Source of the DNA: Goekera deserti | GTDB taxonomy: Bacteria > Actinomycetota > Actinomycetes > Mycobacteriales > Geodermatophilaceae | NCBI RefSeq assembly: GCF_010685995.1 | Contig: NZ_JAAGWK010000005.1 | Coordinates: 62,001 to 126,000 of the forward strand | Length of the DNA stretch: 64,000 nucleotides | Direction: 5' to 3' | Shown: one piece after another, positions 2,530 to 58,480 of the stretch | Numbering within the stretch: the first letter of the stretch is position 1 | Layout: each line of letters starts with the position of its first letter | Program-made: the position numbers and the translations under genes | Notes under the pieces: generated by a model | Told to the model about the DNA's origin: nothing | Seen by the model: the letters and a program-made list of their open reading frames with translations, nothing else | The model's database searches: none

Positions 2530-3309
2530 TCACTTGGGGTCGCGCTCGGACTCGCCGCCGGGTGCCTGGCGGCCGGCGGTCGCGGCGTCGCCCAGCTCGG
2601 CGGCCTCGACCTCGGCGGCAGCTGCGGCGGCCACCTCCGGCGAGATGGCCTCGTCGTCCACGACCGCGGCGTTCTCACGCTTCGGCTCGGGGGTGACGGC
2701 GGTGTCGTCCTGGGTCTCGCCGTCCGGGGTGAAGACGTCGGTGACGACGGCCTGGGCGTCGTCGACACCTTCGGAGCCCTCGGTCACGTCCGGGCTGGTG
2801 TCGCCACCGGGGCCCGTCGTGCCGCCGGCATCGGTGAGGGCGGCGGTGTCGGCGGTGACCTCACCGGCGGCCGACGAGCCACCGCTGCGCGGGGTGGCGA
2901 ACCGGGTGCCGCGAGCGCGCTCGGCCTCGCCGACGGCCTGCTGGGCCACGGTCAGCGCCTCGACCATCTCGATGACCGCCATCGGGGCGTTGTCGCCCTT
3001 ACGGGGACCCACCTTGACGATGCGGGTGTAGCCACCGGGCCGGTTCTCGTAGCGAGGACCGATCTCGGCGAAGAGGTGGTGGACGACGTTCTTGTCGCGG
3101 ATGGTCGTCATGACCTGACGGCGAGCGTGCAGGTCACCACGCTTGGCGAAGGTCACCAGCTTCTCGGCCAGCGGGCGCAGTCGCTTCGCCTTGGCCTCGG
3201 TCGTGGTGATCTTGCCGTGCTCGAACAGCGAGGTGGCCAGGTTCGCCAGCATCAGCCGCTCGTGCGCGGGGGACCCGCCGAGGCGGGGACCCTTGGTGGG
3301 GGTGGGCAT
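2530..3309 (-). CDS. rplQ: Large ribosomal subunit protein bL17 with long acidic C-terminal tail
   Basis: Residues 1-125 match bL17 throughout ([20 protein letters not shown], then [20 protein letters not shown]), a protein near the exit of the polypeptide tunnel. The family usually has 120-200 residues; this one has 259. The extra ~130 residues are a low-complexity tail rich in Ala, Glu, Asp, Thr and Gly with no recognisable domain, probably disordered. The gene follows rpoA after a 285-bp spacer full of repeats and precedes truA. The start ATG is preceded by GAGGAAGGACCGAC. Long acidic L17 tails occur in other high-GC actinobacteria, so it is unlikely to be a fusion. Confidence 0.97.
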
Positions 3310-3378
3310 GTCGGTCCTTCCTCAGGCGGCCGGGCGGGGCGTCGCCGGCTGCATCTCAGCGGGTGGTGCGGTCAGGCT

Positions 3379-3594
3379 CCGCTGCAGCCTCCCACGACGC
3401 GACGAGCGCGTCGTGGGAGCCACAGCGGCGGCCCCGCTGCAGGGTCCCACGGCGTGCGGAGCACGTCATGAGCTGCAGCGGCGGCCCCGCTGCAGGGTCC
3501 CACGGCGTGCGGAGCACGTCATGAGCTGCAGCGGCGGCCCCGCTGCAGGGTCCCACGGCGTGCGGAGCGCGTCGTGGGGGGCAGCGGGGTCCTT
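3379..3594 (-). repeat. Tandem array of the stop-linked hairpin repeat in the rpoA-rplQ spacer (three 53-bp units plus a diverged fourth)
   Basis: Units begin at 3431, 3484 and 3537, a period of exactly 53 bp. Each carries CCCCGCTGCAGGGTCCCACG, a GCGTGCGGAGC core and a closing GCAGCGG arm. The first two plus-strand units are near-identical; the last (3537-3594) changes after the core and ends with the AAGGACC box directly after the rpoA TAG. A fourth unit (3379-3427) keeps only the fold: CTCCCACGACGCG and its exact complement around a 5-nt loop, inside CCGCTG/CAGCGG arms. The spacer from 3310 to 3378 holds no gene I can support. Confidence 0.85.
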
Positions 3595-4665
3595 CTAGAG
3601 CTGCTCGGTCTCCCGGAAGTCGCCCTCTGCGGCGTACTCCTGGCCTTCGGCGTACTCGGTGACACCCTGGTAGGCGTCGGTCTCGTAGCCCTCGTCGTAG
3701 CTCTCCACCGAGGTGGGGACGAACCCGGGCGGGCTGTCCTTGAGCGCCAGGCCCATGGCCGCGAGCTTCAGCTTGACCTCGTCGATCGACTTGGCACCGA
3801 AGTTGCGGATGTCCAGCAGGTCGGCCTCGGAACGGGTGACGAGCTCACCGACGGTGTGCACACCTTCGCGCTTGAGGCAGTTGTAGGACCGGACGGTGAG
3901 GTCCATGTCCTCGATCGGCATCGAGAAGTTCGCGATGTCGGCGGCCTCGGCCGGGCTGGGCCCGACCTCGATGCCCTCGGCGTCGACGTTGAGCTCGCGG
4001 AGCAGGCCGAACAGCTCGACCAGGGTGGAGCCGGCACTGGCGATCGCGTCGCGCGGGTCCATCGACGGCTTGGTCTCGACGTCGACCACGAGGCGGTCGA
4101 AGTCGGTGCGCTGCTCGACGCGGGTGGCCTCGACGGCGTAGGTGACCTTCAGGACCGGCGAGTAGATCGAGTCGACGGGGATCCGTCCGATCTCCTGGCC
4201 GGGCTGCTTGTTCTGGGTCGCCGGCACGTAGCCGCGGCCACGCTCGACGACCAGCTCGATCTCGAGCCGGCCCTTCGCGTTCAGCGTGGCGATGTGCAGC
4301 TCGGGGTTGTGCACCTCGACACCGGCCGGGGGCGCGATGTCGGCGGCGGTGACCTCACCGGGGCCCTGCTTGCGCAGGTACATGGTGACCGGCTCGTCGG
4401 AGTCGGAGCTGACGACCAGGCCCTTGAGGTTCAGGATGAGCTCGGTGACGTCCTCCTTGACGCCCGGCACGGTGGTGAACTCGTGCAGGGTGCCCTCGAT
4501 GCGGATGCTGGTGACAGCCGCGCCGGGGATGGAGGACAGCAGGGTCCGCCGCAGCGAGTTGCCCAGGGTGTACCCGAAGCCGGGCTCCAGGGGCTCGATG
4601 ACGAAGCGGGACCGAGAGGCGTCGATCGTCTCCTCGGTCAGGGTGGGGCGCTGTGCGATGAGCAT
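3595..4665 (-). CDS. rpoA: DNA-directed RNA polymerase subunit alpha
   Basis: The 356-residue protein matches RpoA end to end. The N-terminal dimerisation domain contains [20 protein letters not shown] and [20 protein letters not shown]. The C-terminal domain contains [20 protein letters not shown] and [20 protein letters not shown], the surfaces that contact UP elements and activators. A ~40-residue Glu/Tyr/Asp-rich tail follows the last helix. It lies downstream of rpsD across a 97-nt gap holding a hairpin, so its dosage may be set partly by attenuation. It ends with TAG, immediately followed by the AAGGACC box of the repeat array. Confidence 0.98.
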
Positions 4666-5828: not shown

Positions 5829-5998
5829 GTCTCTCCGGTCTGTGTTGTTCGTGGCCTGGGATCGTGCTGGGTGGGGCAGCGCACCCGTCGCCCCCTCTGC
5901 GGAGCTGGGCCGCCCGCCCTCGTCGGGCGGCGGCGCACCGGCCCCCTACCGGGAGCGCAGCAACGGTGCACTCGGCCCCGGTGCAGTACCGGAGCCGG

Positions 5999-6055
5999 CC
6001 TCGGCGCAGGGTCCCGAGCCGCGCGGAGCGTGGCTCGGGGGGCGCCGAGGTCCTT
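5999..6055 (-). repeat. Stop-linked two-stem repeat, rpsM copy
   Basis: On the minus strand the element begins inside the rpsM stop (TAAGGACC). The outer stem CCTCGGCGC/GCGCCGAGG is perfect. The inner stem CCGAGCC/GGCTCGG is perfect around the invariant loop ACGCTCCGCGC. A constant GGGACCCT follows the inner stem. It lies in the rpsM-rpsK spacer. Confidence 0.8.
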
Positions 6056-6434
6056 ACTTCTTGCCGGCCTTCTTCTTGCCGGCGATGGTCTTGCGCGGGC
6101 CCTTGCTCGAGCGCGCGTTGGTCTTCGTCCGCTGACCGTGGACGGGCAGGCCCCGGCGGTGCCGGATCCCCTGGTAGCAGCCGATCTCCACCTTGCGGCG
6201 GATGTCGCCGGCCACCTCCCGTCGCAGGTCACCCTCGACGCGGAAGTGCTCGTCGATGTAGTCGCGGAGCTTCAGCAGGTCCTCGTCGGTCAGGTCCTTG
6301 GTGCGGAGGTCGGGGCTGATGCCCGTCGCCGCCAAGGTGGCCTGCGCGGAGGTCTTGCCGATGCCGTAGATGTACGTGAGCGCGATCTCCATGCGCTTGT
6401 CGCGCGGGAGGTCGACGCCAGCCAGACGTGCCAT
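6054..6434 (-). CDS. rpsM: Small ribosomal subunit protein uS13
   Basis: The 126-residue protein begins [20 protein letters not shown], has [20 protein letters not shown] and ends in the lysine-rich tail [15 protein letters not shown] typical of uS13. It contacts the 50S subunit (bridge B1) and P-site tRNA. It opens the alpha operon 13 bp after rpmJ, matching the infA-rpmJ-rpsM-rpsK-rpsD-rpoA order of actinobacteria. Its TAA stop overlaps the first bases of a stop-linked hairpin repeat. Length and start are normal. Confidence 0.98.
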
Positions 6435-32093: not shown

Positions 32094-32154
32094 CTGATTA
32101 CCCCTTTCCGGGGTTCGTAACGAAACGCTTCATGCAATGTCTTGGTCGGAGAGG

Positions 32155-32213
32155 CCCCCGTGCAGGGCCCCGCCCCGCGCGGAGCGTGGGGCGGGGGGCA
32201 CGGGGGTCCTTCC
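32155..32213 (-). repeat. Stop-linked two-stem repeat, rpoB copy
   Basis: Just after the rpoB TGA the minus strand reads GGAAGGACC. The outer stem CCCCCGTGC/GCACGGGGG is perfect, the inner stem CCGCCCC/GGGGCGG is perfect, and the loop is the invariant ACGCTCCGCGC. It occupies most of the rpoB-rpoC spacer, so it must be transcribed through. Confidence 0.85.
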
Positions 32214-36196: not shown

Positions 36197-36234
36197 TGTG
36201 CTGCTCTTCCCGGCGTCTAGTGCCGAGCGTTCGG

Positions 36235-36292
36235 CCTCGTCGCAGGGTCCCGCACCGCGCGCAGCGTGGTGTGGGGGGCGACGAGGTCCTTC
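36235..36292 (-). repeat. Stop-linked two-stem repeat, rplL copy
   Basis: The rplL TGA runs straight into AGGACC. The outer stem CCTCGTCGC/GCGACGAGG is perfect. The inner stem CCACACC/GGTGCGG has one A-C mismatch, and the loop is ACGCTGCGCGC, one base from the common form. Confidence 0.8.
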
Positions 36293-38998: not shown

Positions 38999-39014
38999 CG
39001 GGTCCGACAGCTCG

Positions 39015-39070
39015 AGGACCCGACTGCCCCCCACGCCACGCTCTGCGCGCCGCGGGACCCTGCAGCCGGG
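39015..39070 (+). repeat. Stop-linked two-stem repeat, plus-strand copy after the methyltransferase gene
   Basis: AGGACC (39015-39020) begins 17 nt after the stop at 38998. The outer stem CCCGACTGC/GCAGCCGGG has one mismatch, the core CCACGCTCTGCGCG is close to the common loop, and GGGACCCTGC is intact. The orientation follows the plus-strand gene, so the element tracks gene direction. Confidence 0.65.
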
Positions 39071-39128
39071 CCGACAGGACAGACTGCCCAGCGAGGCCGA
39101 CGGCGAGGTGGAACGGAAGGAGATGGGC

Positions 39129-39977: not shown

Positions 39978-39986
39978 GCACGTAGG

Positions 39987-40046
39987 CCCCGCTACAGGGT
40001 CCCGCACCGCGCGGAGCGTGGCGTGGGGGCAGCGGGGTGCTCCTTC
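39987..40046 (-). repeat. Stop-linked two-stem repeat, rplA copy
   Basis: The rplA TGA is followed by AGGAGCACC. The outer stem CCCCGCTGC/GTAGCGGGG has one mismatch, and the loop is ACGCTCCGCGC. The inner stem CCACGCC/GGTGCGG contains a mismatch and a wobble. This copy lies at the end of the rplKA transcript. Confidence 0.75.
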
Positions 40047-40764: not shown

Positions 40765-40849
40765 GATGGTCCTCTCTCGGGGGCTGCTGCCCCACTCCTG
40801 TGGTGAACGGGCCTGGCCGGCCCTCCCACGACTACACGTGATGGAACGG

Positions 40850-40907
40850 CCTTGGTGCAGGGTCCCGACCCGCGCGGAGCGTGGGTCGGGGGGCACCAAG
40901 GTCCTTC
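40850..40907 (-). repeat. Stop-linked two-stem repeat, rplK copy (type example)
   Basis: The rplK TGA is followed by AGGACC. Outer stem CCTTGGTGC/GCACCAAGG and inner stem CCGACCC/GGGTCGG are both perfect, around the loop ACGCTCCGCGC and followed by GGGACCCT. Compared with the rpsM copy, base changes are compensated on both sides of each stem. Confidence 0.85.
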
Positions 40908-41334: not shown

Positions 41335-41384
41335 GACTTTCCTTCGTGAGTGACGTGACGGACGTGCGTGGTCTGGACTGGAAC

Positions 41385-41446
41385 GGCCTCGGCGCAGGGA
41401 CCCTTCCCGCGCGGAGCGTGGGGAGGGGGGCGCCGAGGCCCTTCCG
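41385..41446 (-). repeat. Stop-linked two-stem repeat, nusG copy
   Basis: After the nusG TAG the minus strand reads CGGAAGGGCC, a variant box. The outer stem GGCCTCGGCGC/GCGCCGAGGCC is perfect over 11 bp. The inner stem CCTCCCC/GGGAAGG has one mismatch around ACGCTCCGCGC. It fills most of the nusG-rplK spacer. Confidence 0.8.
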
Positions 41447-58397: not shown

Positions 58398-58453
58398 TGG
58401 AGGACCCCCTGCCCCCCACCACTCGCAGGTTCGTGGCGGGACCATGCAGGGGG
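58398..58453 (+). repeat. Stop-linked two-stem repeat, plus-strand korB copy
   Basis: One base after the korB TGA comes GGAGGACC, then an outer stem CCCCCTGC/GCAGGGGG (58403-58453), an inner CCACCAC/GTGGCGG pair with one mismatch, and GGGACC. The inner loop (TCGCAGGTTC) differs from the common ACGCTCCGCGC, so this copy is diverged. It follows the direction of the upstream gene. Confidence 0.65.
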
Positions 58454-58480
58454 CCGGGGGTGATGGCGGACCGCGCTGGC

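Follow-up and report, generated by a model that had tools for sequence, protein, structure and literature searches.

A tandem array of a stop-codon-anchored hairpin repeat in the rpoA-rplQ spacer of a Geodermatophilaceae genome

The spacer between rpoA and rplQ holds, at 3375-3595 on the minus strand, a four-unit tandem array of a hairpin repeat that begins on the rpoA stop codon. Coordinates refer to the window, by which we mean the whole 64,000-nucleotide stretch analysed (positions 62001-126000 of contig C19 in a 4.84-Mb genome of 61 contigs). The units belong to one element family that has a covarying fold, is anchored at stop codons and comes and goes between related genomes, exchange for unrelated hairpins included. 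We read the array as the local tandem expansion of a REP-like, mobile, stop-anchored hairpin that has taken over the role of a post-stop hairpin, and we put the probability of this reading at about one half, with the role itself proposed from sequence comparison. The array and its flanking genes, read along the minus strand, are as follows.

rpoA: 3595..4665, minus strand, 356 aa, stop TAG, Pfam RNA_pol_A_bac, RNA_pol_L and RNA_pol_A_CTD
Unit 1: 3535..3595, minus strand, full-length element, model positions 1-61, the best genome match of covariance model R1 (86.8 bits)
Unit 2: 3483..3535, minus strand, 53 bp, without the GAAGGACC head, model positions 9-56 at 3487-3534
Unit 3: 3430..3482, minus strand, 53 bp, model positions 9-56 at 3434-3481
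Unit 4: 3375..3429, minus strand, 55 bp, diverged, weak model match (L127:1282-1331, E 0.31)
rplQ: 2530..3309, minus strand, open reading frame with an RBS-like GAAGGACC upstream at 3320-3313

The original prediction had placed a tandem amplification at 3379-3594, which is the right location, the array reaching a few bases beyond it at each end. Its description of three units with a 53-bp period, followed by a fourth that keeps only the fold with a 13-bp stem, agrees with the Tandem Repeats Finder result, the register of the copies and the stem. The array (3375-3587, period 53, 4.0 copies) has a score of 296, the highest of the 15 Tandem Repeats Finder rows in the window, the second being 89, and its copies stand in register at 3375, 3430, 3483 and 3536, with spacings of 55, 53 and 53. 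Base 1 of unit 1 is the third base (G) of the rpoA stop TAG (3597-3595). Units 2 and 3, which had been predicted to be nearly identical, match at 53/53 positions, and this identity supports the expansion in place that had been proposed for them. Unit 1 matches unit 2 at 47/53 positions and unit 4 matches it at 22/53 (ungapped), only the fold being retained in unit 4 as a perfect 13-bp inner stem (3389-3401/3407-3419). The stems of units 2-4 are more perfect than that of unit 1, which would fit hairpin-templated correction. The assembled rpoA-rplQ spacer measures 288 bp between the rpoA stop and the rplQ start. As RNA, the spacer has a predicted fold of -178.9 kcal/mol, compared with a mean of -143.1 kcal/mol for dinucleotide shuffles (z -6.6; 0/200 shuffles as low).

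The open reading frame at 2530..3309 is one that we take to be rplQ (L17) from its N-terminal start, MPTPTKG. Its ribosome-binding region (3309-3325) has the sequence TGAGGAAGGACC, 12 letters that also make up the most frequent stop-plus-head combination of the element, and a near-identical stretch precedes rplQ in the majority of the 90 related genomes described below. The RpoA protein shares 92-94% identity with 11 records that bear the names Blastococcus, Geodermatophilus or Trujillonella and 82% with a Geodermatophilaceae MAG, and identity reaches 97% to several other genomes of the family, with G104 and G088 as the best.

A DNA search with the spacer gave 43 matches in the genome, the rpoA-rplQ locus included. 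Alignment of the copies revealed a common 61-nt core with GAAGGACC as its head and GGGGCC as its 3' end; it folds into an inner stem and an outer one that has a bulged A. The covariance model R1, built from 34 copies over 61 positions, finds at least 136 matches in the genome at E ≤0.01, a lower bound in that 150 of 14355 first-look candidates were scored, and these merge into 129 sites. The stems covary strongly. Across 128 distinct copies, standard pairs fill 97.0% of the pair cells in an alignment fitted to the same structure, double-changed pair cells number 312 against a shuffle mean of 92, and pairing falls to 44-50% when the structure is slid by 1-3 columns. By type, the pair cells comprise 2100 G-C, 183 A-U and 27 G-U (alignment A2, the 128 copies of this genome). 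This scarcity of G-U, with nearly all stem changes being full exchanges, may mean that the arms are corrected at the DNA level and not by stepwise selection on RNA.

At about 28 of the 129 sites (by a loose criterion) the core is followed by an optional 16-nt 3' tail, GTTCCAGCACGTCACC. The exact 20-mer of GGCC plus tail is present in 75/112 family genomes and its reversed reading in none; with the tail, the full element is therefore ∼77 nt long, and it has polarity. Past the tail, the sequence differs among the 30 loci that were read, except for at least five (L291, L301, L306, L313 and L316), and we therefore reject a longer autonomous element that shares the 3' tail. In these five loci a partial further unit, from the loop or the 3' arm to the tail, directly follows the tail; in L301 it makes up a tandem unit of 46 bp, which sets it apart from the 52-53-bp arrays in the present genome (G000).

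The element is characteristic of Geodermatophilaceae. With 48 candidates scored per genome, 101/112 genomes of the family have matches at E ≤1e-4, and of 249 genomes drawn from across the order (21 candidates scored per genome) 41 match, 38 of which belong to the family. The other three come from ∼210 genomes of other families, a set that may include a few more of Geodermatophilaceae, and have 1-2 matches each. Numbers per genome differ widely: ten chosen genomes, with up to 150 candidates scored, gave 0, 0, 4, 2, 9, 5, 53, 145, at least 150 and at least 150 matches, the two without any being G001 and G029.

That the unit is a dispersed repeat linked to stop codons, as the original prediction held, is evident from its placement in the genome. 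Taking coding stops and gene contexts from a GC3 heuristic and not from gene calls, we find that a coding stop begins at -12 to +4 of element position 1 at 95/129 sites, compared with 61/4000 random positions and 15/129 sites on the reverse strand. Within the wider range of -60 to +12 there are 103 sites with a stop; at 53 of these it lies at exactly -4, so that TGA plus one base is followed by the head, and at only eight is it farther upstream than -12. In further common classes the stop codon is completed by bases of the element, at offsets of -2 (seven sites; five TAG, one TAA and one TGA), -1 (10 sites, all TGA) and 0 (10 sites; six TGA and four TAA). The linked stops comprise 86 TGA, 12 TAG and five TAA, the last two of which lead us to reject TGA alone as the target. 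A pre-existing head as target is likewise rejected, the closest-compared element-free spacer (that of G044) having no GAAGGACC beside the stop. Outside -12 to +4 lie 34/129 sites, eight with a stop farther off and 26 with none by the heuristic test; one of these 26 (C18:25358) has TGA at -4, a second ground for rejecting TGA alone as the target. A similar pattern is seen in relatives, where 26/40 sites in 80-kb stretches of five genomes are stop-linked, 12 of them at offset -4, and 14/40 are not linked. By the same heuristic, 54 of the 95 linked sites lie before a co-directional gene, 31 are convergent, nine are neither and one is too short to assign. One copy (L045, G000:C16:101093-101153), which has no coding stop nearby on its own strand, sits between 25-bp direct repeats, and another (G000:C5:40141-40201) ends 4 bases before the end of its contig, so the repeat may break assemblies.

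The window holds 10 element sites. Besides the rpoA array these are the following single copies.

5996..6056, minus strand, on the rpsM stop TAA
12964..13024, minus strand, on the stop of the S14 gene
32152..32212, minus strand, behind rpoB
36232..36292, minus strand, behind rplL (L7/L12)
39013..39073, plus strand, behind a cyclopropane-synthase-like gene whose stop lies at -17
39984..40046, minus strand, behind rplA (L1)
40847..40907, minus strand, behind rplK (L11)
41384..41444, minus strand, behind nusG, stop TAG
58399..58456, plus strand, behind a TPP-enzyme gene

Because the window is a ribosomal-gene cluster, the eight transcription and translation genes among these neighbours are no proof of enrichment.

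The same spacer was read in 90 genomes of the family, from 102 with an rpoA match among 112 searched, the 12 left out being those of the g5-g7 genomes (seven) and of five genomes whose matches were split or partial. Of the 90 spacers, 28 carry the element and 62 lack it. The carriers are a hand list of 27 spacers with E ≤0.003 plus L151 (E 0.022, by eye), from which L131, L140, L143 and L144 (E 0.014-0.08; short hairpins with GGACC at the start) and L207 (found on the right strand only in another search, as L231, E 0.027) are excluded. Whether or not the element is there, a hairpin nearly always is: in 87/90 spacers (26/28 carriers and 61/62 non-carriers) the rpoA stop is followed, at a distance of no more than 15 nt, by the start of a stem of 5 bp or more. 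Relatives with and without the element keep a post-stop hairpin, a point that the original prediction had missed, so the rpoA array is one way of filling a place where a hairpin stands in any case. The first 75 nt reach z < -2 against mononucleotide shuffles in 60/62 non-carriers and in 10/28 carriers, and this lack of unusual stability in the carriers, relative to shuffles of their own composition, counts against the explanation by a hairpin role. Several carriers retain another hairpin right behind the element (as in G057 compared with G044, 213 and 160 bp). The rpoA stop is TAG or TAA in 5/28 carriers and in 0/62 non-carriers, all of which have TGA (p 0.002, descent ignored); recounting the five borderline spacers, all TGA, as carriers gives 5/33 and 0/57 (p ∼0.005, by hand arithmetic). 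The restriction of non-TGA stops to carriers fits a junction inside the stop codon. As a separate observation, a motif like CACACTG, possibly a promoter piece, lies behind the hairpin ∼65-128 nt before the rplQ start in 62/90 spacers (loose pattern) and is absent from the present genome.

Copy number at this site, which the original prediction had proposed to compare among strains, is not constant across the species compared, the relatives all coming from outside its genus, and takes the values none, one, nested two and four. More than one coding-strand model match in the spacer occurs only in the present genome (L127) among the 90, and the 53-bp array likewise. In L129, L170 and L181 one copy is nested within the inner part of another (by eye), and what appear to be decayed versions of this nesting are seen in L171 and L174. 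In L145, L151 and L178 the copies have collapsed and lack the inner stem (by eye). Tandem growth is also seen at other loci, as listed here.

L010: array with period 53, 3.6 copies
L009: array with period 52, 2.4 copies
L036: array with period 52, 2.3 copies
L263: array with period 63, 2.0 copies
L023: array with period 88, 2.1 copies

Five of six groups of neighbouring matches consist of a full first unit followed by headless units (model positions 7-58 at most), whereas in the sixth (L023) both units are full length. These same-kind arrays, which have other sequences, are one reason why we consider it very improbable that the rpoA array is an assembly artefact hiding a true locus of one or two units. 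The array is moreover internal to a 373.6-kb contig, ordinary read pairs are able to bridge its 213 bp, and units 1 and 4 differ from units 2 and 3. An artefact would find some support in the identity of units 2 and 3, in the 61 contigs of the genome, one of which (C5, 40205 bases) breaks off 4 bases after a copy, and in the lack of a comparable array among the other spacers of the 90.

Turnover extends beyond this site. Counting a stop without a model match as absent, so that decayed copies count as absent too, the element is missing in the sister at 6/7 orthologous stops for G044 and G057 and at 2/6, in both directions, for G064 and G065. At one stop (G064:68998 of the joined stretch) it replaces an unrelated simple hairpin, and elsewhere its stem sequence differs between sister genomes. 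MITEs are marked by terminal inverted repeats with a target-site duplication and by a matching autonomous element. Here the ends of the element pair with each other, while the filled and empty sites, compared by eye, show no evident duplication and often a replacement. At gene ends without the head motif, the sole feature by which element-free ends were sorted, a strong fold lies within the first 60 nt after the stop in 94/447 cases, in the next 60 nt in 24/447 and in the last 60 coding nt in 22/447. From these counts, post-stop hairpins are common in this setting, the element being one of their sources.

Such turnover could also be that of a selfish or drifting functionless repeat that lands at gene ends, where the harm is small, with the array arising by neutral slippage or template switching. 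The range from 0 to at least 150 matches between genomes of one family is what this explanation leads one to expect, as are the nested (L129, L170, L181) and collapsed (L145, L151, L178) copies and the other arrays with a period of 52-53 (L009, L010, L036). However, the anchoring seems too sharp for it, with 53/103 stops at exactly -4 and only eight upstream of -12, and the post-stop stem is kept in 61/62 element-free genomes, so we hold this explanation to be possible and, on balance, doubtful.

The preferred reading, that of a mobile hairpin taking over a post-stop role and expanding locally, is favoured by the counts of stop linkage (95/129 here and 26/40 elsewhere), the covariation, the kept post-stop stem, the strong folds behind element-free gene ends (94/447), the turnover and the orientation. 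Against it count the unlinked sites (34/129 and 14/40), the lack of any match in G001 and G029, the fact that no mobilising enzyme was found and the few G-U pairs, which might reflect arm correction at the DNA level in place of stepwise selection on RNA. Mechanistically, dispersal would be REP-like and non-autonomous, and the element, once in place, would provide the upstream message with a hairpin at its RNA 3' end. The stem begins ∼5-8 nt past the stop, so the terminating ribosome would meet it at its leading edge and may be slowed or uncoupled by it; the hairpin might also shield the upstream cistron from 3'-5' decay. The outcome would be a leaky barrier (partial attenuation) that lets only part of the transcription or RNA reach rplQ; additional units would either strengthen this barrier, giving a graded effect of unit number by which copy number could tune rplQ against rpoA, as the original prediction suggested, or be nearly neutral.

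A sharper effect on rplQ would follow if the hairpin were a U-less (I-shaped type) terminator or a hairpin for 3'-end processing that lowers the transcription of rplQ compared with that of rpoA, more strongly with more units. The GC-rich hairpin right behind genes and the 31/95 convergent sites (heuristic) suit this idea, and U-less structured ends, termed HS-U-lack TEPs, or I-shaped terminators, likewise form a GC-rich gene-end stem-loop without a U-tract in the available text of PMC8269248, in which 353/535 highly structured transcript ends of Streptomyces clavuligerus lack a U-tract. According to the same portion of that source, these U-less ends have higher read-through than U-rich ends, and HS-U-lack TEPs are a class of 3' ends, not one repeated dispersing element. 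A U-tract intrinsic terminator is rejected here: no U-run (five or more T within 8 nt) follows the stem at any of the 129 sites, and a consensus scan of window positions 3200-3700 gave neither a terminator-like nor a sigma-70-like site, the promoter negative being weak evidence in an actinobacterium. Efficient stops within the alpha operon would starve the essential rplQ, so that a strong terminator between rpoA and rplQ is unlikely unless rplQ has its own promoter, and we regard the U-less alternative as conceivable, if unlikely.

Among known systems, the integron attC site also lies immediately downstream of stop codons and is likewise an imperfect palindrome of comparable length; it has R-box consensus motifs. 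Neither of two R-box motifs occurs in any of the 128 copies, and attC identity is rejected; the element, in contrast, is dispersed over the genome as single copies and not as a cassette array. A cmscan of the window against Rfam at the gathering score returned four tRNAs only, so membership in an Rfam family is rejected for the window.

The closest likeness is to the GTAG REPs with RAYT/TnpAREP of E. coli, Pseudomonas and Stenotrophomonas, with which the element shares a high-copy, imperfect, bulged palindrome, polarity and a position at gene ends; it seems to behave as a REP close to the stop would, by an analogy that extends to function only as a proposal. In the accessible parts of PMC3733652, GTAG REPs are mostly found downstream of genes, no more than 20 bp from the end of the preceding ORF in the genomes shown as diagrams, and their termini often supply a TAG stop, while PMC8266576, in its available portion, describes a bulge in REP palindromes. 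REPs are taken to be palindromic, extragenic and present in more than 100 copies, and here at least 136 matches were found at 129 sites with 97.0% of pair cells paired. The element is longer, however (61-77 nt compared with 20-40 bp), and its host is an actinobacterial family, of a phylum that the parts of PMC3733652 at hand, which place tagged REPs mainly in Proteobacteria, do not name for them. Membership in either GTAG or CGTC REPs is rejected by the tag and transposase tests: GTAG occurs within 10 nt of either end in 1/128 copies, CGTC at either end of 0/128 core copies, and the Y1 (HUH) transposase PF01797 in 0/112 family genomes, with a control positive in 5/14 known genomes. The CGTC-tagged REPs are presented in the accessible text of PMC3733652 as palindromic repeats without a dedicated transposase; in the element, by comparison, a CGTC lies in the tail, ∼10 nt from the stem foot, in only ∼28/129 copies. 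We found no description of the repeat in the open-access literature, including that on repeats or hairpins of Geodermatophilaceae, and the available parts of PMC3035280 (the G. obscurus genome) and PMC4681348 do not mention it. The thousands of loosely defined palindromes reported, in the portion seen of PMC12306157, for three Actinomycetota genomes concern none of Geodermatophilaceae.

A bolder and, in our view, improbable proposal is that the element is a mobile hairpin guided by the stop codon itself, accepting any of TGA, TAG and TAA in any frame without a Y1 transposase. Its spread would be tied to translation termination or to the 3' end of the mRNA (RNA-mediated copying being one example) and would recreate the stop at every insertion; it would repeatedly replace the 3' hairpins of the family, and the rpoA array would be a visible stage of in-place growth.

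The effects of post-stop hairpins are known from few cases. Here a high-GC family carries a covarying, stop-anchored hairpin repeat, without RAYT and with 0 to at least 150 matches per genome, and the view across 90 genomes of one essential site takes in filled, nested, collapsed, amplified and empty states. Together these make it testable in soil bacteria what role a hairpin behind the stop codon has and how repeats find gene ends.
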